The translations under genes and the position numbers were made by a program. Of a stretch of 40,792 nt of DNA, positions 4,741 through 16,214 are shown one piece after another. Below the pieces are notes generated by a model. That model worked only from the letters and a program-made list of their open reading frames with translations. It searched no databases and was not told the origin of the DNA. Source of the stretch: Oscillospiraceae bacterium (GTDB taxonomy: Bacteria; Bacillota; Clostridia; Oscillospirales; Ruminococcaceae). Location: contig JAFWDH010000021.1 of assembly GCA_017513135.1 (NCBI GenBank), positions 1 to 40,792 on the forward strand. Reading direction: 5' to 3'. Each line of letters opens with the position of its first letter. The stretch's first letter is position 1.

Positions 4741-7700
4741 TCAGTCAGACAGCCCGCGGGCGTATCTCCTGATGAAGATCACTGCAGCTGCGCAGAGCAG
4801 CATCGTGATCATGTACATTCCAATACTGCCGGCGTCGTCAGTTCTGGGAACGCGCGTGTTCACTATGGTGAGGTCAGGCTCGCCGTCGTAGGTGATCTCT
4901 GCCTCAAGGCCTTTATCGCCCATGCTCACCTTTACTGTTACGGAGTGAGTCGTCGTGTCATACGTGACATCCTCCACGCCGTCATCCTGCTCAGTGATCG
5001 TGTACTCATATGTGCCCGGCTCGGTGTAGGATATCTCGCCGAACTCTGCGACGGGATTGTCCCTGGTGGCAACAGCCGTATCGGAGGAAGGCATCGGAGC
5101 GTCCTCTGTGACTGCTTCCAGCCTGAACGTGAAGGTCTCCGCCTTTCCCCAGTCCTCTATCTCCTTTGTGACCTTAGGCGTCACGGTGGCAGGTATCACC
5201 TCGTAGGTGTTGACTATGGTCAGGCTGTCCTTGCCGTCATACGCTATTTCAGCGGCAAGTCCGCTTCCCTTTTTGCTCACGCTGATGACAACCTTATGAG
5301 GCTTTGTATCGTATGTAACGAACGGCACGCCGTCATCCACTTCCGTGATGGTGTACTCGTAGTCGCCCGGCACAGTGAACTGTATGGCGCCGAATTCCGC
5401 AGTCGGTTTCCTCTTCGTGGCAACAGCCGTATCGGAGGAAGGCATCGGAGCGTCTTTGGTGACGGCTTCCAGCTTGAAGGTGAACGACTCGGCATCGCCC
5501 CAGTCCTCTATCTCCTTCGTGACCTCAGGCACCGCCTCAGCTGGCACCACCTTGTAGCTGTTGGTCACCGTTAGGCTCTCTTCCCCGTCGTCATATGCTA
5601 CGTCGATGTCGAGATATCCGATAGGCTCATCGACCTCGGTGACAGTTACCGTGATCTTGTGAGGCTCCGTGTCGTAGGTGACGAACAGCACCCCGTCATC
5701 AACCTCGGTTATCGTGTACTCATATGTTCCGGGCTCGTAGAAGGTGATGTAATCGAATTCCGCGAGCGGATCATCCCTTGTCGCCACCGCTTCGGTGACC
5801 TTGGGCATCGGAGCGCCTTTAGTGACAGCCGCAAGCTCGAACGTGAATGACTCGGCATCGCCCCAGTCATTGATCTCTTTCGTCACTGCGGGAAGGAAGG
5901 ATACTGAGCCGGGCTCATCCGGAGGTCTGTTGACCAGTTTGAGGTCCAGTATCTCCTCATAATCGACTGTGATGTTTCCGTCCTCATCCTCTGTCTCGAC
6001 CGCTACGGGCAGAGTGAAGAACATCGGCTTTACGGGATCCTTTGTCCTGGTGGGATCGTTCTCTTCCACAAGGAGGTATGTTCCCTTGTCGAGTTTTATA
6101 GCTGCGTATCCGGTGGAATCCGTTGTGACCGTATCAACGAGGTTCGCTTCTACGGCGAAGCGCTCCAGATCCTCCTCTGTCGGCTCATCGCTGAGAGTCT
6201 CGCCTTCTTCAGGCTCGACCTTATAGATATCGAATCTGATGCCCTCCATGGGCTTGCCGGTCTCCGTCTCTGTCTTGTAGATCCTGAGGCCTGTCTCGAT
6301 ATCCCTTTCAAAGACGAACTCGTTCTTTGCCCTGACTTTTGTCTCCCCCTCCGCAACGCCTACCAGCGCCTGTGAACCCTTGTAGTTGCCGGGTTCATCT
6401 TCATAGCTCTCCGGCTGATAGAAATATACGTTCTTGGGAAGATCCTGTGTCCCTTCCGCCACGACACGCACATGATCGCCGTACTTTGCGGTGATCGTTA
6501 CGGGATACTCCTTTTCTCCCGTTACCGTAACAGTCTTCTTGGTGATGGGATCAGACTCGTTTCCGTCACCGTCCACGGTAAAGGTAGTGATCGTAAGCGT
6601 TACAGAGTCTTTTTCGTCTGCTCCGCTGTTCAGAATGATATTCAGATCGATATCGTAAGTGTCATCCGTATTCGGGTCGATATCCGAACGCACGATATCG
6701 ACCTTTGAGATGACGATATCGCTTTCGGCAGGTCCTATCCCGGGAAGACCGATGAAATAGTCACGCAGGGCGTTCACCCGCTCTTCCTTGTCTGCGTAGT
6801 ACGTCCAGTATCTTGGATTTGCATCCCACCAGAAATCCAGCTCATTGCGGTAGTCGTTGACTGAACTGATCAGTCTGCTTGAAGCCCGCGGATAATCGAT
6901 GGCGTCTGTCGTATACCCGTATGAAGCGTCTTTTTCAAGCTCTTCATTTGTCAACTTATTGGAGTAATACCATACCGCGAACTGTATCGCCGAGATGACG
7001 TCGGAACGGTCCACATCATCCGCGTACGGGAATCCGTCAGTCCTGAGGTTCTCACGCAGTTCCTCAAGAGTGATATAGGGATACGCGTTAAGGATGATAG
7101 CGCGTATGTGGCTCGCCTGATATGAGTTGTAGTAATCGCAGTCCTCCAGATTGATCCGCTTGTAATGATGTTCAAAATGAGTAGGCTCGCGCTCGTCACA
7201 GCAGTATGTGACTTCGTAGTTGTTCGTTCCGTATGCATAGGGTCCATCCGGAGTGAAAGTCGTATCATCCCCAGATGAATCGGTTATTATCAGTGTACAA
7301 GGCATATTACGTCTCGGATCGAGAGATGTGTTCTGGCTCAGTTCATACGCAAGCCACTGATTACCGGATATCTGTATCATCTGATAGTTGTATTCATTGT
7401 CGCTGGGAACAAGGCTGTATGTCCCTGCCGTAAACTTATTCGACGGAATGTCAGTCAGTCTTTTGACCAGTACAGGGTCCAGCTCCGCCTGCTGCTCCGG
7501 GGTCAGCGCGTCATACGCAGCCTGGGCTTCTGCTCTTTGCCTTGTCATATACTTTACGTAAACGTCATAACCCATCTGAGCCTTAAGATGCTCATTCATT
7601 GAGTCCTCATTCTCTTTGTCTATGAAAGAAGTGACTCTGAAATCTTCCCTGTTATCCGCCATCTCCTGAAGAGAGTCGATACCAAGCAGCATCGCTTTTA

Positions 7701-7818
7701 CAGCTTCAGCCTCAGGGCTCATCGCGAAGACGAATGACCCTGCAAACAGCATGGTCATCATCGTAACGGCCGTCAGGACAGCGGCTGTCAGTCTCTTCAA
7801 TCCTTTATTCTTGTCCAT
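4741..7818 (-). CDS. Large wall-anchored adhesin: thioester, CnaB and three pilin isopeptide domains
   Basis: A 1025-residue surface protein. A signal peptide (LTAAVLTAVTMMTMLFAG) is near residues 10-32. Then comes a region matching a thioester adhesion domain: YCC at about 205-207 and AIQFAVW at about 277-283 fit the Cys and Gln that form an internal thioester able to bond host ligands. A CnaB-like domain spans roughly 509-630. Three copies of an FctA/Spy0128-type domain follow (about 640-755, 762-872, 880-990). Each has a VTKEI lysine, a YTITE glutamate and a terminal TN or VNT asparagine, the residues of Lys-Asn isopeptide bonds. The C-terminus is VPRTD, a hydrophobic span and RRYARG, an atypical sortase signal. 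I chose the second ATG (7818), which has GGAG nine bases upstream; the ATG at 7851 has no ribosome site. No sortase is in the window. Confidence 0.87.
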   Translation of the reverse strand: MDKNKGLKRLTAAVLTAVTMMTMLFAGSFVFAMSPEAEAVKAMLLGIDSLQEMADNREDFRVTSFIDKENEDSMNEHLKAQMGYDVYVKYMTRQRAEAQAAYDALTPEQQAELDPVLVKRLTDIPSNKFTAGTYSLVPSDNEYNYQMIQISGNQWLAYELSQNTSLDPRRNMPCTLIITDSSGDDTTFTPDGPYAYGTNNYEVTYCCDEREPTHFEHHYKRINLEDCDYYNSYQASHIRAIILNAYPYITLEELRENLRTDGFPYADDVDRSDVISAIQFAVWYYSNKLTNEELEKDASYGYTTDAIDYPRASSRLISSVNDYRNELDFWWDANPRYWTYYADKEERVNALRDYFIGLPGIGPAESDIVISKVDIVRSDIDPNTDDTYDIDLNIILNSGADEKDSVTLTITTFTVDGDGNESDPITKKTVTVTGEKEYPVTITAKYGDHVRVVAEGTQDLPKNVYFYQPESYEDEPGNYKGSQALVGVAEGETKVRAKNEFVFERDIETGLRIYKTETETGKPMEGIRFDIYKVEPEEGETLSDEPTEEDLERFAVEANLVDTVTTDSTGYAAIKLDKGTYLLVEENDPTRTKDPVKPMFFTLPVAVETEDEDGNITVDYEEILDLKLVNRPPDEPGSVSFLPAVTKEINDWGDAESFTFELAAVTKGAPMPKVTEAVATRDDPLAEFDYITFYEPGTYEYTITEVDDGVLFVTYDTEPHKITVTVTEVDEPIGYLDIDVAYDDGEESLTVTNSYKVVPAEAVPEVTKEIEDWGDAESFTFKLEAVTKDAPMPSSDTAVATKRKPTAEFGAIQFTVPGDYEYTITEVDDGVPFVTYDTKPHKVVISVSKKGSGLAAEIAYDGKDSLTIVNTYEVIPATVTPKVTKEIEDWGKAETFTFRLEAVTEDAPMPSSDTAVATRDNPVAEFGEISYTEPGTYEYTITEQDDGVEDVTYDTTTHSVTVKVSMGDKGLEAEITYDGEPDLTIVNTRVPRTDDAGSIGMYMITMLLCAAAVIFIRRYARGLSD

Positions 7819-7981
7819 ACTTCTATTCTCCGGTTGACACAGATTACCCATATTAATTATTAGTATAAAATCGACACCGTGTTTTTATCAAGATAAACAG
7901 CGCCGCTTACAAAGATTTGCGTTTCAGAAACATCTCAAACAATGTAGAATATAGTAAAAAGAATTATCATGCGGAGGAAGA

Positions 7982-9895
7982 ATGGTTATCTACATAGTCA
8001 TAGCGGTCATTATCCTGATCGTCGCAGCCGCAAACGCAAGAAAAAACAGCAATGACATCAAGGCGATGTCTCTGGGTCTCACCGGGGGCATCTCACTGGC
8101 CGTGGCAGTGCTGACTGCACCTTATTTCGCACTCAGCTACAGCGATCCGTTCATCATATGTCTCAAGAGCATCAGATACGGAGCGGGATCCATAAGTCTG
8201 AGCGTGGAGCCCGGCATAGTGAGTGCTCTGGAACTTGCCGAGCCGCTCAACACGATCTATCTTGTAATGCTGTATGTCCTGTACATCATGGGACCGGTGT
8301 GCGCCTCACTGTTCGCAGTAAGCTTCTCCCGCTCAGTAGTGGAATGGATCCGCTTCCGCGGACACAGAAAGATACACGTCTTCTCGGAGCTCAACTCCAG
8401 AACAGTCGCTATCGCAGAGAACCTTGCCGAGACAAGGCCCAGGGAGATGCCGGTCTTCTGCAACGATGCAGGGGAGGGAGACGAGGATCTGAGGATGCGC
8501 GCAAGAGCCGCACATGCCCTCTTCACAAGAAGAAACGAAGCCGATCTTCCCATCAAGAAAGGTCAGGATTACGAGTTCTATATCATAACCTCAGATGTCC
8601 GCAAGGTGCTCACTTCTACTGCCAAGCTCTGCGATGAACTGGTGAAAAAGCCTAATTACGACCGTTCTCACGTCTTTGTTCGTTTCTCCGCATCCGACTC
8701 ATGTCTGGACCTTATCAGAGACCTTGACCGCACTTACGGAAACAGCGTAAAGCTGCGTCCCGTAAACGAGAATGACTCGGAGGCCGCCTGTCTGCTCAGA
8801 AAGTATACCGGCCGGCTGTCAGCTGCGGGCGATCACAACCTGATCATCGTGGGCGGCGGAGAAGCAGGCATCGCCCTTCTCAAAAGCTCCCTCTGCATCA
8901 TGACCGGTCCCGAGAGCACATTCGCCGTGAGATACATCTCGAAGAAAGCTCGCGATGAGGCGTCCGGTCTCAAGGCTTCCTCTCCCGGGATCATGGAGAA
9001 GCCTCTTGCTTCCTATATGGGAAAGGACTCGGAAGGCGGAGAATATGATATACGGTTCTATCCGGAGGACCCGGAAGGTTCCGGTCTTTTCGAGATCCTT
9101 TCAGCGGAAAAGACTCCCGATCTTGTCTGTGTGACAGGCGACGACGATGAGCAGAACTTCAGTCTCGCGCAGAGGATCAAACGCTTCTATGCCTCTTTGA
9201 GCAGCGATCTTTCATATCCTCCGATCGCCTGCAGGGTCGTTGACAAGAAGCTCAACGTCATTCTCGGCAGCAATGACGGCATCGCGCTCTACGGTAACGA
9301 AGCCGACAGATACGGATACGATGCCCTTATAGATCCGGAACTTGAGGAGGAAGCCAGGAGAGTCCACCTGTCATATATGCTTCCGTCCATGCCGAACGCC
9401 CTGGATCTTAAGGGAGAAGATAAGGAAAAAGTCCTCGAGGATTCCGGTTTCTACACCTATACGAACATGCAGTCCTCCATGGCAAGCGCCCTTTCCCTGG
9501 AGTTCCGCCGGGCTTATATACTTTCAAACAAGCCGGATGGCGATAAGCGCAGCGATAAAGAGTTCATACGCAGCTGGCTTGATGATCCCGGGAAGCTCAG
9601 CATTCTCGGAGACTGCGAGCATCTGAGGTGGAACGCGTATCAGCGGATGCAGGGCTGGAGGACCGCCGACGCGGTCCAGACCGGCGCCATCGCAGCCTCG
9701 ACCTCCGGCAGGAGGATAAGGTCTGACGAGTTCATGCTGCATCCCGCCCTGGTGTCGCTTGAGGAACTGCCCGATGCGGAAAAGACTACCGACGACATAA
9801 AGCACGGCATAGATCCCGAGAGCAGCGGGACCGGTTTCGTCGAATCCGACCGTGTCATACTGAGGAACCTCCCGCTCATACTCGGCGGAAAGTGA
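7982..9895 (+). CDS. Membrane protein with Rossmann (TrkA-N-like) and RyR domains
   Basis: A 637-residue protein. Three hydrophobic spans lie at about 2-18, 31-51 and 91-115. The rest is cytoplasmic: one Rossmann-like start (IHVFSELNSR, about 131-140), then a second with the dinucleotide-binding loop VGGGEAG (290-296), as in TrkA-N/RCK potassium-channel regulators. Near the C-terminus, GDCEHLRWNAYQRMQGWR (543-560) matches the core of the bacterial RyR domain, named after the ryanodine receptor. GGAGG precedes the ATG. The TIR gene starts 18 bp after its stop, so the two form an operon. Inference: a ligand-gated membrane effector or channel that responds to a nucleotide, possibly one made by the TIR partner. 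The membrane pore role and ligand are unproven. Confidence 0.7.
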   Translation: MVIYIVIAVIILIVAAANARKNSNDIKAMSLGLTGGISLAVAVLTAPYFALSYSDPFIICLKSIRYGAGSISLSVEPGIVSALELAEPLNTIYLVMLYVLYIMGPVCASLFAVSFSRSVVEWIRFRGHRKIHVFSELNSRTVAIAENLAETRPREMPVFCNDAGEGDEDLRMRARAAHALFTRRNEADLPIKKGQDYEFYIITSDVRKVLTSTAKLCDELVKKPNYDRSHVFVRFSASDSCLDLIRDLDRTYGNSVKLRPVNENDSEAACLLRKYTGRLSAAGDHNLIIVGGGEAGIALLKSSLCIMTGPESTFAVRYISKKARDEASGLKASSPGIMEKPLASYMGKDSEGGEYDIRFYPEDPEGSGLFEILSAEKTPDLVCVTGDDDEQNFSLAQRIKRFYASLSSDLSYPPIACRVVDKKLNVILGSNDGIALYGNEADRYGYDALIDPELEEEARRVHLSYMLPSMPNALDLKGEDKEKVLEDSGFYTYTNMQSSMASALSLEFRRAYILSNKPDGDKRSDKEFIRSWLDDPGKLSILGDCEHLRWNAYQRMQGWRTADAVQTGAIAASTSGRRIRSDEFMLHPALVSLEELPDAEKTTDDIKHGIDPESSGTGFVESDRVILRNLPLILGGK

Positions 9896-9913
9896 TACAG
9901 AAGGAGCGCGCAG

Positions 9914-12900
9914 ATGGAAACGCTTCACTATGACGCATTCATATCCTACCGCCACACTCCAAAGGATACGGCGGTGGCAAAGGAGCTCCAGCAGTCGCTG
10001 GAGCGTTTCCGTATACCCAGAAGCATACGCAAAGCCTACGGCAGGGACCGCATAGACAGGATCTTCCGCGATCAGGAAGACCTGGAGATGACCAGCGACC
10101 TCTCAAAGAAGCTTGATGACTCTCTCAGAGCCTCTGACTTCCTCATAGTTGTCTGTTCCCCGGATTACATGCAGTCAGAATGGTGCCTTCACGAGCTGGA
10201 GACCTTCATCGGACTCAAAGGCGCTGACAGGGTCCTGTGCGTGCTTGCGGAGGGCGAACCGCCTGCTATCTTTCCGGATATACTGCTCAGCAGGAAGGAG
10301 ACCGATACAGCAGATGACGGCACAGTCTTCACCAGGACCGTCAGCACTGAGCCTCTTGCCTGCGATTTCCGCGGAAGCCTCAGGGATGCCAGAAGGACAG
10401 AGCTTCCCAGACTCGTGTCCGCGATAATCGGTTGCGGGTACGATGAACTGATGCTGCGTCAGGAGCGCTACAGGCGCAGGCGCGCCGCTGTGGTCCTCGC
10501 AGGAGTACTCTCAGTCTCGGCGATCGCGATCTCTTACCTGCTTTGGAGCAATGCCCAGATAAACAGGAACTACAGACAGTCTCAGATAAACGAATCCCGC
10601 ATGCTGTCGAAGGAAGCGATGTCGTCTCTGGACAGCGGAGACAGGCTCAGCGCTCTCAGAAGATCTCTGGAAGCCGTCGGAGACGGCGACAGGCCAGTCG
10701 TGGATGAGGCGGTAATGGCGCTGACTTCATCCTCCTATGCCTATTCGGTACCGGGAAAACAGCTTGAGAACTGGAGGATAGACACCGTAAACGACATTTC
10801 TTCGTTCTGCCTCAGCGAAGACGGATCCTATCTCACCGCAATGGACCGTCTGGGATCCTACCACGGGATAGATATGTCTTTACGCAGAGAAGTGTTCCGG
10901 GTGGATACCGGATCTTCAGTCTATATCTCGGATCCCGTTTCCGCCGGCGGCAGCACAGTCATCTGCGTCTCCGGCACGGTGAAGGCGTTCGATCCTTCTG
11001 ACGGTTCTGTCCTGTGGGAGACTCCTCTGAAATACGGGCTCGTCAACTCGCTCGCGGTCAGTCCCGACCGCAGCCTCATCGCTGCGGCGGACTCATATGC
11101 CGTGCAGATCATGGATACGTCGGGCGAGCCTTTCCTCAGCCTCCCCCTTCCCGGAGAGGAAGAGGGATACATAACCGACCTGATATGGTCTCCTGACGGA
11201 AAAGAGATCACCGTATACATCAAACAGACTCTTATGACCCGCGTCGGGGTGTTCGATGTTCAGACATCGGACTTCTTCCCGGTCACAGCTTTCTGCAGCA
11301 AGACATCCGCATGTTACACCGATGACGGAGACCTTTATGTCTTCTGCTGCGGCGAGACATCTGTTCCGGAATCGGAAGGCCATGTAAGCACCATCTTCCC
11401 TGTCGATTATGAGATATGCCGCGTAAGGCACGGCAGCATCCTCTGGAAAAGTGTGATAAGCACCGATTCCGTAGTGTCGCTCATGCATGCGGATATCATT
11501 CCCGGGTATGACGGCACGCTCATCACTCTGGGCGGCAGTTTCTACCGGCTGTCAGCTGACGGCTCGGTCCTCGGACAGATGGATACAGGCGGAGTGTTAT
11601 CTGATGTCCTTCAGGTCGGAGAGAACCAGATGGATCTGGTCATGACCGACGGCAGGCACTGCATTTACGTTCCGCAGAACGATACCATATATCTCACCGA
11701 AGCGTTCCCTTCGGGATATGAGCAGATCGAGATAGTTTCATCAGGCCCTTCAGCAGGCACGTTTGCACTGCTGAAAGACGGAAACATATCTTTCTACTCT
11801 GCGCTGTCCGACGAGAACGTATCGTTCTGGACAGGAAAAGGCTTCTCATATCCTCCGCTCTCCAGCCTCAGGAGCAAGGACAGGCTCCTGCTGTATGCAG
11901 ACGGACGTCTGATACTCTACGATACCTCTTCAGGGACCGTCGTCAATGACGGGATTCAAACCGAGAACAGCCCGTATCACCTTCTCACCGTTATTGACGG
12001 AACAGCATACGCTCTCAGAGTCGATCAGGAGACGTCCCGGTTCATACTGTGCAGCTTTGATCTGAGCGACGGCGAAAAGAAAGGCGAAGTACCGCTTCCC
12101 GTGGCCGAGTTCTATACTTCTCTGGGGCTTGTGTACAATGATGATTCGTATATCTCCGCATCGATGATAGACACGCTCTATATCCCTCCGTCCCCTGTTG
12201 CTCTGCGCGGCAGCACTCTCTGCATGCACGACTGGGATGACCCGAACCGGATCTTTATCTATGATATTTCCGCCGGCACTTCCCGTGAGATCCGGGCAGA
12301 TCTCGAACCAGACTGCTACCTCATCTCATCTGAAGTAAGCGTCGGTCCCGCTCCCCTGCTCATATCGGAGGACGGCAGATACGTCTTCTCGGTGCGCTAT
12401 GACATGAAAGATTCGAGCATCCTTCCGGTAATGATATCGCTGGAGGACGGATCGGTCTCTGTACTGGAGAGCGACATAAACGATCTCTCATCCGCAGTAT
12501 TCGCGGACGGATGCCTACTGTTCTCCGGCAAGGATTCCCTCCATGAGCTGGACCAGCACGGCGGTCCGGGTCAAGACATCCCGTTCTCCGGCGACAATGC
12601 CATATCATTCACTCTCCACAAAGGCCGCACATACTGCGTTTTCCCGGACATGACGATGACAGTCTTTATCAACGGCGATGCAGAGCGGACCATCTCGCTT
12701 GGTATCCCGCCTGACAGTTATGCGAAGGGAAAGGCATACCGCTACGAATTCACAGATGACAGGCTTTACCTCTTCCGCGACCATGACATGTGTGTTATAT
12801 CCCTTTATTCTGACAGCGCTTCCCCGCTGTACACTGTGACCGGAAGCGTCATTGACGCTGATCCCGAGCGCGGGATGATCATCTGTTACGGCACGCACGG

Positions 12901-13009
12901 ATCCTCAGGTGATGAGAACTATCAGGTCGTATCCTTTGCGGAATACTCAGTGGATGAGCTTACCCTCAGAAGCAGAGAACAGCTGGATCAGTTCCTGCTG
13001 GTTCCCTGA
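9914..13009 (+). CDS. TIR-domain transmembrane protein with large beta-propeller-like outer region
   Basis: A 1031-residue protein. The TIR domain covers about residues 1-180: YDAFISYRHTPKD at the first strand, and CSPDYMQSEWCLHELETF with E94 as the probable NAD-cleaving glutamate. A basic patch RYRRRR (185-190) precedes one membrane span (191-211), so the TIR end should face the cytoplasm. Next is a short helical segment (SRMLSKEAMSSLDSGDRLSAL, about 227-247) like the linker before propellers in STAND-type proteins. About 750 residues of WD40/PQQ-like strands follow, with repeats such as LAVSPDRSLIAAADS and LIWSPDGKEITVY. The ATG has GAAGGAG upstream, 18 bp after the RyR gene. Bacterial TIRs often hydrolyse NAD or make cyclic ADP-ribose signals in defence. 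Here the layout suggests an outside sensor driving an inside TIR. Confidence 0.82.
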   Translation: METLHYDAFISYRHTPKDTAVAKELQQSLERFRIPRSIRKAYGRDRIDRIFRDQEDLEMTSDLSKKLDDSLRASDFLIVVCSPDYMQSEWCLHELETFIGLKGADRVLCVLAEGEPPAIFPDILLSRKETDTADDGTVFTRTVSTEPLACDFRGSLRDARRTELPRLVSAIIGCGYDELMLRQERYRRRRAAVVLAGVLSVSAIAISYLLWSNAQINRNYRQSQINESRMLSKEAMSSLDSGDRLSALRRSLEAVGDGDRPVVDEAVMALTSSSYAYSVPGKQLENWRIDTVNDISSFCLSEDGSYLTAMDRLGSYHGIDMSLRREVFRVDTGSSVYISDPVSAGGSTVICVSGTVKAFDPSDGSVLWETPLKYGLVNSLAVSPDRSLIAAADSYAVQIMDTSGEPFLSLPLPGEEEGYITDLIWSPDGKEITVYIKQTLMTRVGVFDVQTSDFFPVTAFCSKTSACYTDDGDLYVFCCGETSVPESEGHVSTIFPVDYEICRVRHGSILWKSVISTDSVVSLMHADIIPGYDGTLITLGGSFYRLSADGSVLGQMDTGGVLSDVLQVGENQMDLVMTDGRHCIYVPQNDTIYLTEAFPSGYEQIEIVSSGPSAGTFALLKDGNISFYSALSDENVSFWTGKGFSYPPLSSLRSKDRLLLYADGRLILYDTSSGTVVNDGIQTENSPYHLLTVIDGTAYALRVDQETSRFILCSFDLSDGEKKGEVPLPVAEFYTSLGLVYNDDSYISASMIDTLYIPPSPVALRGSTLCMHDWDDPNRIFIYDISAGTSREIRADLEPDCYLISSEVSVGPAPLLISEDGRYVFSVRYDMKDSSILPVMISLEDGSVSVLESDINDLSSAVFADGCLLFSGKDSLHELDQHGGPGQDIPFSGDNAISFTLHKGRTYCVFPDMTMTVFINGDAERTISLGIPPDSYAKGKAYRYEFTDDRLYLFRDHDMCVISLYSDSASPLYTVTGSVIDADPERGMIICYGTHGSSGDENYQVVSFAEYSVDELTLRSREQLDQFLLVP

Positions 13010-13023
13010 ACGACAATACATGA

Positions 13024-13055
13024 AGCCGGCTTCAGAAAACGGAGCCGGCTGTTTT
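13024..13055 (+). terminator. Terminator of the RyR-TIR operon
   Basis: Two copies of AGCCGGCT separated by 11 bases form an 8-bp stem, followed by GTTTTG, 14 bp after the TIR stop. Confidence 0.8.
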
Positions 13056-13064
13056 GCGGCATGG

Positions 13065-13093
13065 AACTCAAGCCTGACTTGAGTTATTATAAT
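13065..13093 (+). promoter_or_regulatory. Palindromic operator beside a -10 box
   Basis: AACTCAAG and CTTGAGTT are perfect 8-base inverted arms around CCTGA (13065-13085). TATAAT follows at 13088-13093, with a second TATAAT at 13138-13143. The position suits a repressor that blocks the promoter of the HTH-HD gene, perhaps that protein itself. Confidence 0.5.
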
Positions 13094-13174
13094 GTCAGTT
13101 CAATCTGCGGTTGCTTCTAATTAATAATGACTGATCCTATAATCTAAATGCAGGAAGGAAAGGAGGACATCATC

Positions 13175-13993
13175 ATGAGGCCGATTGGAAAAAACATCTA
13201 TGACGCAAGAAAAAGAGCTGGACTCACTCAGTTGCAGCTGGCTGAAAGGCTTGACGTCTCATTTCAGGCAGTCTCGTCATGGGAAAGGGATGAATATCTT
13301 CCGGACACGGAAAACCTGATGCGTCTGGCAGAGGTCCTCGATACATCCGTAAACTCGCTGACGGAAGGGCGAAAAGCAGAGTTCGTGACTAACAAGGAGC
13401 TTTTCGACTGGAGGCACATGAAGACCTTTGTGAAAGCCACGGCAAAGAGCCATAACATGCTGAACACGCTTAAAGCCGTCGATTTCGCGGCTGACGCACA
13501 TGAAGGGCAGTTTAAAAAGAACTCGGATATACCGTACATCAGCCATCCGCTGACACTGGCATGCAACTGTCTCGCCATGGGCATCAGCGAAGATTCGGTC
13601 ATAGCCGCTTGTCTGCTGCATGACGTTATGGAGGACTGCGGAGTGTCCAGGGACGAGCTTCCCGCAGACGAAGAGACAAAAGATCTGGTCGCTCTTCTGA
13701 CGAAGCCGGAGCATGATAAAGAAAACGAAGAGAAGGTCCTCGCAGAATACATCAAAGGCATCTCATCCTCGCCCAAAGCCTCTCTGATAAAATGCCTTGA
13801 CCGCTGCAACAACCTGACTACCATGTCCTGGGGTTTCGCCAGAAAGAAACAGGCGGAATACGTCATGGAGACAGAAAAGTATATCCTTCCGCTTCTGGAC
13901 GTCATCAAGGACACACCGGAATACAACAACGCGGCATGGCTGCTGACTTATCAGATCGGAAGTCTTCTGGAGACGTACAAAGCTCTCCTTTGA
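13175..13993 (+). CDS. XRE-type HTH fused to a SpoT/MESH1-like HD hydrolase
   Basis: A 272-residue two-domain protein. Residues 5-62 form a Cro/C1-type helix-turn-helix (IYDARKRAGLTQLQLAERLD, then VSFQAVSSWE). From about residue 100 comes an HD domain like the (p)ppGpp hydrolase half of RelA/SpoT: ISHPL (H124), LLHDVMEDC (H149, D150 and the E153-D154 pair) and IKCLDRCNN (D209). These match the metal-binding histidines and aspartates of that family. The ATG at 13175 has AGGAGG eight bases upstream; the earlier ATG at 13148 precedes that site, so it is rejected. It lacks synthetase, TGS and ACT domains. It could couple alarmone or nucleotide hydrolysis to transcription. It follows the TIR operon but has its own promoter region. 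Confidence 0.82.
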   Translation: MRPIGKNIYDARKRAGLTQLQLAERLDVSFQAVSSWERDEYLPDTENLMRLAEVLDTSVNSLTEGRKAEFVTNKELFDWRHMKTFVKATAKSHNMLNTLKAVDFAADAHEGQFKKNSDIPYISHPLTLACNCLAMGISEDSVIAACLLHDVMEDCGVSRDELPADEETKDLVALLTKPEHDKENEEKVLAEYIKGISSSPKASLIKCLDRCNNLTTMSWGFARKKQAEYVMETEKYILPLLDVIKDTPEYNNAAWLLTYQIGSLLETYKALL

Positions 13994-15619: not shown

Positions 15620-16105
15620 TCACTCCTCCATGAAGTTGATCTCAAGCTCCATCCGCTCCTCATCCGGATCGCGGTCCCATACCTCACACGCCAGTTCGAA
15701 CGCATCGTCAGGCTCGGCTTCAGTGAGTTCGCCGCTTCCCTCTTCAGACTCGAAGATGCCGCATCTGGAATCGGGTCCTATATCCTCATGAGCCCATTTG
15801 ACAGTCATCCTCAGCCCGGGATTGTCAGAAGCGAGCTTCCGGAACACCGGTACCGGAGGATCGCTGAGCGTGTCGAACGTGTATTCCAGTATCGTGTCGT
15901 TGCGGTACAGGATCACATCCGTCTCCTCCGCCTCAGACTCCGTGCCCCAGAGCTCTTTTCTCTCCTCTTCGCTCTCCCCTGCCGGAATTATCCCCGCCAG
16001 GCTTATAGCCTCGCTGCCGGCGCTCTCCGCTATCCTGTCTCTCAATGCACGCAGATCTTCCGACTCTCCGCGGAATGTCATTTTATTTCTAATATAACTC
16101 TTCAT
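15620..16105 (-). CDS. Api92-like / DUF1281-type protein
   Basis: A 161-residue acidic protein. It starts MKSYIRNKMTFRG, has a LWGTESEAEETDV stretch, then TFDTLSDPPVPVFRKLA and VKWAHEDIG. That order matches the ferredoxin-like domain of Api92-like proteins (DUF1281), whose members carry WGT, a TAWSPP-like segment and YxDE. The function of the family is unknown; many members are phage- or plasmid-borne. I chose the ATG at 16105 because GGGAG lies seven bases upstream; the longer frame to 16180 has no ribosome site. It is 63 bp before the fucosidase start on the same strand, so they may share a transcript. Confidence 0.6.
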   Translation of the reverse strand: MKSYIRNKMTFRGESEDLRALRDRIAESAGSEAISLAGIIPAGESEEERKELWGTESEAEETDVILYRNDTILEYTFDTLSDPPVPVFRKLASDNPGLRMTVKWAHEDIGPDSRCGIFESEEGSGELTEAEPDDAFELACEVWDRDPDEERMELEINFMEE

Positions 16106-16214
16106 CTTTTTTCTCCCAAACACAGTAAACGGCTGCATCCGCAGCGTTGTCTTTTCAAAACTTACACATAGATTGTACAATTAAATCAGATAAAAGTTAA
16201 CGGAGGGATGATCG

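Follow-up and report, generated by a model that had tools for sequence, protein, structure and literature searches.

What might a TIR protein do beside a predicted membrane protein whose C-terminal domain is of the ryanodine receptor (RyR) type? The question is raised by two adjoining genes at 7982-13009 of a 40,792-nucleotide stretch of DNA from an Oscillospiraceae bacterium (contig JAFWDH010000021.1, assembly GCA_017513135.1; the whole stretch is called the window here), for which an earlier note, made from the letters alone, had proposed that the TIR protein makes a signal and that an RyR-Rossmann membrane protein senses it and changes ion flow. The answer that we tentatively favour is that the TIR protein (P2) may make an ADP-ribose-type signal from NAD+, that the RyR pocket of the membrane protein (P1) may bind this signal, and that a predicted tandem-RCK gate may then switch ion flow. 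The evidence that carries it is the RyR-related pocket of P1 and the recurrence of TIR genes beside P1-like genes.

The gene pair and its RyR-related domain

As the earlier note had described for its two-gene operon, both open reading frames (7982-9895 and 9914-13009) lie on the + strand with a gap of 18 bp. The ATG of each is preceded by a Shine-Dalgarno-like GGAGGA or AAGGAG, and the P1 of the window is the sole P1 match in its genome. The features of the pair are listed here, with their basis in brackets.

7982..9895, + strand: gene 1 (P1), 637 amino acids (open reading frame, predicted model, RyR profile matches)
7982..8362, + strand: membrane part of P1, residues 1-127 (hydropathy, predicted model)
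8369..8821, + strand: predicted first RCK (TrkA-N-like) domain of P1, residues 130-280 (predicted model)
8828..9421, + strand: predicted second RCK domain of P1 with the VGGGEAG loop, residues 283-480 (predicted model)
9587..9811, + strand: divergent RyR domain of P1, residues 536-610 (Pfam on relatives, profile searches)
9620..9793, + strand: pocket residues H547 (9620-9622), W550 (9629-9631), H587 (9740-9742) and D604 (9791-9793) of P1 (alignment A2)
9901..9906, + strand: Shine-Dalgarno-like AAGGAG for P2, within the 18-bp gap (sequence)
9914..13009, + strand: gene 2 (P2), 1031 amino acids, with TIR domain, one predicted span and propeller-like region (open reading frame, Pfam, hydropathy)
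9929..10264, + strand: TIR domain of P2, residues 6-117 (Pfam)
10193-10195, + strand: E94 of P2, NADase-type glutamate (TIR alignment)
10478..10549, + strand: single predicted span of P2, residues 189-212, with an arginine-rich stretch before it (hydropathy)
10721..13006, + strand: beta-propeller-like region of P2, residues 270-1031, predicted extracellular (PQQ_2, Beta-prop_ACSF4)
13024..13050, + strand: terminator-like hairpin of 10 pairs, then TGTTTT, ending the pair (RNA folding)

The C-terminal RyR domain claimed for P1, within which EHLRWNAYQRMQGWR (residues 546-560) lies, was borne out by family profiles. Pfam family PF02026 did not reach its curated cut-off in P1 and gave no match there at E <= 1, and the domain is therefore termed divergent and RyR-related. 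The same family was found at the C-terminus of four relatives (G241, G319, G269 and G545; 29.7-32.1 bits, cut-off 27.4), with weak matches below the cut-off in four of seven other P1-like proteins. A C-terminal profile (A5, 16 rows, being 16 of 17 C-terminal stretches, with L077 left out by our choice) was compared with the PDB, and all 53 matches at E <= 5 were ryanodine receptors or RyR domains (best E 4.5e-13); hhalign of the P1 C-terminal family against five stand-alone RyR proteins gave a probability of 95.2 (E 2.7e-8). The full-family profile matched the RyR structures 6uhi (E 6.2e-13) and 3nrt (E 5.9e-6), and also ubiquitin E1 enzymes (E 3e-4; the Rossmann stretch in RCK2). Judged by these sequence profiles, the C-terminus of P1 is homologous at family level to RyR domains, including PF02026 (animal RyR repeat 1-2, bacterial 3nrt) and the phage protein RyDEP.

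RyDEP binds and cleaves 2'cADPR and 3'cADPR, isomers of cyclic ADP-ribose (cADPR), with H75, W78, H100 and D117 as ligand residues and H75 and D117 as the catalytic pair (PMC13232231, 2026 preprint). In alignment A2 these four pair with H547, W550, H587 and D604 of P1, in the pattern H547-x-x-W550, then H587 and D604, with D604 at H587+17 just as D117 stands at H100+17. Conservation in A2 (31 rows) is high for H547 (30), W550 (31) and H587 (31) and lower for D604 (19); all four fall within the 12 invariant columns of a 32-row alignment that contains no rows of families f32, f52 and f85. In five aligned stand-alone RyR proteins H587 is replaced by T. P1 differs from RyDEP in a W550-H587 stretch that is 15 residues longer (37 vs. 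22), and from both RyDEP and PF02026 in that its RyR domain is fused to a membrane RCK protein and lies below Pfam detection.

Predicted gate of P1 and TIR protein P2

Hydropathy analysis agrees with the earlier description of a three-span first protein and a transmembrane TIR protein, giving three spans in P1 (1-23, 26-51 and 89-116) and one in P2. In the predicted model of P1 the helices comprise residues 2-21, 26-52, a short 56-72 and 89-113, followed by 117-127 leading into RCK1. P105 is unchanged across alignment A4 (32 rows, of which P0011 is an RyR-only row and not a full-length relative). The dinucleotide-binding-type loop VGGGEAG is present at residues 290-296 as the note had said; the single Rossmann loop that it envisaged gives way to two RCK domains per chain, as predicted by the model and structure comparison. 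One distant relative matches TrkA_N at 26.2 bits (cut-off 23.8).

Foldseek with the P1 model returned gating-ring matches that include RCK chains, at 6-14% identity, and the match to GsuK extends into the membrane part of P1 (root-mean-square deviation 13.3 Å). RCK and Rossmann matches dominate the fold search with the whole model, and the lack of RyR structures there is uninformative because RCK matches fill the results. P1 appears similar to the tandem-RCK channels CASTOR/DMI1, GsuK and BK (Slo1) and to the single-RCK MthK in its predicted tandem-RCK gating-ring fold, which follows a membrane part whose last two spans are separated by a short predicted helix. It differs from them in the added RyR domain, in the low identity to their RCK chains and in having no recognisable filter. 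CASTOR, which likewise lacks TVGYG, has a tandem-RCK ring and conducts Ca2+ (PMC6697748).

No PADLOC family matched P1 at E <= 1, nor any of ten P1-like proteins at E <= 0.01. Two NCBIfam phosphoglycerate mutase matches of P1, with some 13 bits where the cut-offs exceed 300 (E 0.033 and 0.09), were dismissed as chance, and the name "urea transporter" carried in its source by one P1-like protein, P0012, is very likely a mis-annotation.

P2 matches the Pfam families TIR_2 (49.6 bits, cut-off 28) and TIR (36.7 bits). Its E94, singled out in the earlier note, lies in the motif WCLHE, at the NADase glutamate position of TIR enzymes, and a glutamate is present there in 14/14 aligned TIRs, a hand-picked subset of the TIR_2 matches. 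Beyond TIR domain and span, P2 carries about 760 residues of propeller-like sequence absent from the earlier note; the propeller models match at about residues 286-469 (PQQ_2, 6e-5; Beta-prop_ACSF4, 6.8e-5), both below their curated cut-offs. Since an arginine-rich stretch precedes the span, the TIR domain is predicted to be cytosolic and the propeller to lie outside the cell. The genome of the window encodes a second large TIR protein (L035, 5993-9148, + strand) with a TIR of the P2 type and a TPR protein nearby.

The pair resembles Thoeris in that a TIR gene keeping its catalytic glutamate adjoins a gene whose product is predicted to sense nucleotides, and in the score of P2 against ThsB_TIR, narrowly above its cut-off (22.8 vs. 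21.2 bits). The PADLOC ThsB models match the TIR portion only (E 1.2e-4 and 0.032), and for NCBIfam ThcB4 the score is 20.1 bits (cut-off 220). In contrast to Thoeris, P2 is predicted to possess a membrane span and a propeller, and P1 is a predicted membrane RCK-RyR protein; membership of Thoeris was rejected because no ThsA-type effector (SIR2-SLOG or macro domain) was found in P1 by Pfam or PADLOC.

Recurrence among relatives and genomic setting

The co-occurrence that the earlier note had put forward as a check on its idea was found: a TIR_2 gene lies within 5 kb of a P1-like gene in 8/26 genomes, against 0.48 expected (P ~8e-9), or, counted by family, in 6/12 against 0.47 expected (P ~6e-7), a chance estimate that allows neither for TIR genes being clustered nor for breaks between contigs. 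In all eight linked genomes (G000, G005, G006, G139, G195, G462, G445 and G551) the TIR gene is on the strand of P1, and in five of them the gap is -4 to 21 bp. Not among the 26 are G425 and G153, whose partial matches form part of larger proteins close to TIR genes; G443, which has a match of that kind but no TIR_2; another 14 genomes in which the matches were short; and G004 and G045, where the contig ends. Two neighbours were left out of the TIR count, the gene upstream in G516, TIR-like by eye and given only GDPD by Pfam, and one in G120 (ThsB_TIR, E 0.033).

On the P1 tree, where rows P0001-P0003 and P0006-P0009 were treated as unlabelled, their neighbours not having been read, TIR neighbours occur in three parts. 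The TIR label takes 7 changes, and 274/500 shuffles were equally low; the label is therefore scattered and not confined to one clade. The pair is kept in two relatives of the same genus, G005 (gap 21 bp) and G006 (gap 18 bp). The genes compared around these pairs mostly differ from those of the window: just a homologue of 15620-16180 (- strand, no Pfam match) lies near the G005 pair, 72% identical and immediately after it, and none lies near that of G006. Other arrangements are a TIR protein with propeller-like region, a P1-like gene and a stand-alone RyR gene (G195); P1-like, RyR and TIR genes (G462); and an AAA+/M41 gene between two P1-like genes, followed by an RyR gene and after it a TIR gene (G139). 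At L030 (6567-14431, - strand) two P1-like genes accompany an AAA+ gene with M41 peptidase and stand-alone RyR and TIR genes, with a TIR-FHA gene further on.

P1-like genes elsewhere have AAA+/M41, Tubulin_2 and transglutaminase genes among their neighbours, and at L031 (3386-10972, - strand) and L070 (8090-18499) they adjoin Tubulin_2-type gene clusters. Copies of f32 sit among what we take to be SecD/SecF-like and ribosomal-protein-like genes. The P1-like branch of L073, L075, L076, L078-L080 and L086 has no equivalent of D604; its neighbours are presumably a SCIFF radical-SAM maturase and SecD/SecF.

Around the pair itself, the region 13015-13070, 3' of P2, folds with -19.3 kcal/mol (z -2.3), and its hairpin was missed by a scan with a loop limit of 8. 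Measured in 2-kb steps, the guanine-cytosine (GC) content of the pair is 0.51-0.55 and resembles that of the flanks, and a foreign-DNA origin was rejected on this ground; a viral origin was rejected as well, a viral_contigs scan with a single peptide pattern having found no relative. Ten flanking proteins were compared with Pfam and PADLOC. They are mostly metabolic or surface proteins (esterase, aldolase, PfkB kinase, metallo-hydrolase, pilin/thioester surface protein, helix-turn-helix plus HD, fucosidase and FMN reductase in Pfam, with no family for two of the ten), and resemblance to PADLOC models is limited to the helix-turn-helix part of 13148-13993. This last gene (+ strand, HTH_3 fused to HD_4) is immediately downstream of the pair; in G004 its homologue shares a contig, which ends in P1, with a P1 fragment. 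The gene at 4741-7851 (- strand), divergent from P1, encodes a large surface protein that combines thioester (TED) and SpaA/pilin parts with three FctA isopeptide stretches.

Proposed mechanism and alternatives

In the mechanism that we tentatively prefer, the propeller of P2, predicted to face outward, would trigger the TIR domain which, to judge from E94 and from the TIR family, would cleave NAD+. The signal would be bound by H547, W550, H587 and D604, as their one-to-one match with phage RyDEP suggests, and would pass through the RCK ring of the predicted model to a putative pore, the ring moving the membrane part of P1 and so switching ion flow. Gating by adenine nucleotides has a precedent in the dual-RCK GsuK, for which NAD+ and ADP are activators (PMC3510474). 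In function this would be a TIR signal with its effector, the effector being unlike that of Thoeris. As to the biological outcome, we lean slightly towards defence rather than another response to an outside cue. A bolder form of the idea is a bacterial version of signalling from cADPR to the ryanodine receptor. A TIR receptor facing outward would produce a cADPR isomer, and a tandem-RCK channel of the CASTOR/DMI1 kind with the RyR nucleotide pocket would receive it and open a pore, perhaps for Ca2+; this we consider rather unlikely.

The signal-and-sensor idea of the earlier note is partly supported and has gained from the RyDEP preprint and the match to RCK gating rings. Of the outcomes that the note had named as refuting it, neither rare adjacency nor loss of the TIR glutamate was seen, and by profile the C-terminus of P1 is RyR-related. 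A number of results weigh against the preferred mechanism. In 18/26 genomes (9/18 with a contig end in range) the 5 kb around P1-like genes show no TIR_2 match, and this includes all testable copies of f32, f52 and f85; these three families form a tree branch of 10 rows (support 100/100) with no TIR neighbour and, in A2 as well, no D at H+17. That D is also missing in the TIR-linked G462 and G445, and in G008 P1 has no adjoining P2, on a 4.6-kb contig. P1 has no Pfam family at E <= 1; the C-terminal profile reaches only E 0.052 with 35tm_A, which may be RyDEP; and just 2 PDB matches of the P1 model have E <= 0.001, with TM-scores of 0.36 and 0.34 by query. No TVGYG-type filter was found in the first 180 residues of any of the 32 rows of A4; a K+ channel was rejected on this count, and a pore in P1 is putative. 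Six of eight tested RyDEP homologues bound signals and two did not (PMC13232231). A defence island was rejected and the defence idea drew no support from the ten flanking proteins.

The many genomes with no TIR_2 match nearby would suit a P1 that serves clostridia generally as an RCK-RyR membrane protein for some house-keeping nucleotide, and beside which TIR genes were occasionally acquired. So would the AAA+/M41, Tubulin_2 and transglutaminase neighbours, the presumed setting of the f32 copies and the TIR-linked rows, no more clustered on the tree than shuffled labels. However, TIR neighbours far above chance in three tree parts, uniformly on the same strand and often closely spaced, speak against this account, which we consider unlikely. 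It is also possible that P1 is its own NAD+/ADP-type RCK sensor or a transporter regulator, with the TIR protein as scaffold or as an NAD+ consumer that sets the gate, and no special messenger. RCK rings sense such ligands directly, as GsuK does (PMC3510474); the P1 model has TrkA matches, and RCK2 retains the GxGxxG loop. This would leave the conserved RyR pocket and the extra stand-alone RyR genes of TIR loci unexplained, and seems improbable to us. One further explanation, in our view quite unlikely, makes P1 an off-switch: its RyR domain would use H547 and D604, as RyDEP uses their counterparts, to cleave the signal from the TIR protein, and the membrane part would only position P1 by that protein. 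The RyDEP catalytic pair does have counterparts in the window P1 and 19/31 rows; nevertheless, cleavage was seen for the founding RyDEP only and, despite their good conservation, for no other homologue tested (PMC13232231), a gating ring would be superfluous in a degrading enzyme, and G462 and G445 retain the TIR partner without the D.

In the literature searched, of which coverage is incomplete and wider listings were taken by title and start of abstract, RyR and TIR domains occur together only in the RyDEP preprint, whose main text does not mention TrkA, RCK or transmembrane, and no system joining RyR with TIR and TrkA or SLOG was found; the conflict-system papers examined mention neither RyR nor TrkA. 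TIR enzymes feed SIR2-SLOG, macro-domain and other effectors, and an RCK gate with an RyR pocket would, if the tentatively preferred mechanism is true, add ion flow to these outputs. The RyDEP preprint raises the question of a cADPR action on the ryanodine receptors of animals via their RyR repeats (PMC13232231), which a small bacterial RyR-RCK protein beside a TIR protein would make testable. If true, the mechanism would tie bacterial TIR signalling to ion flow in a gut-type bacterium.
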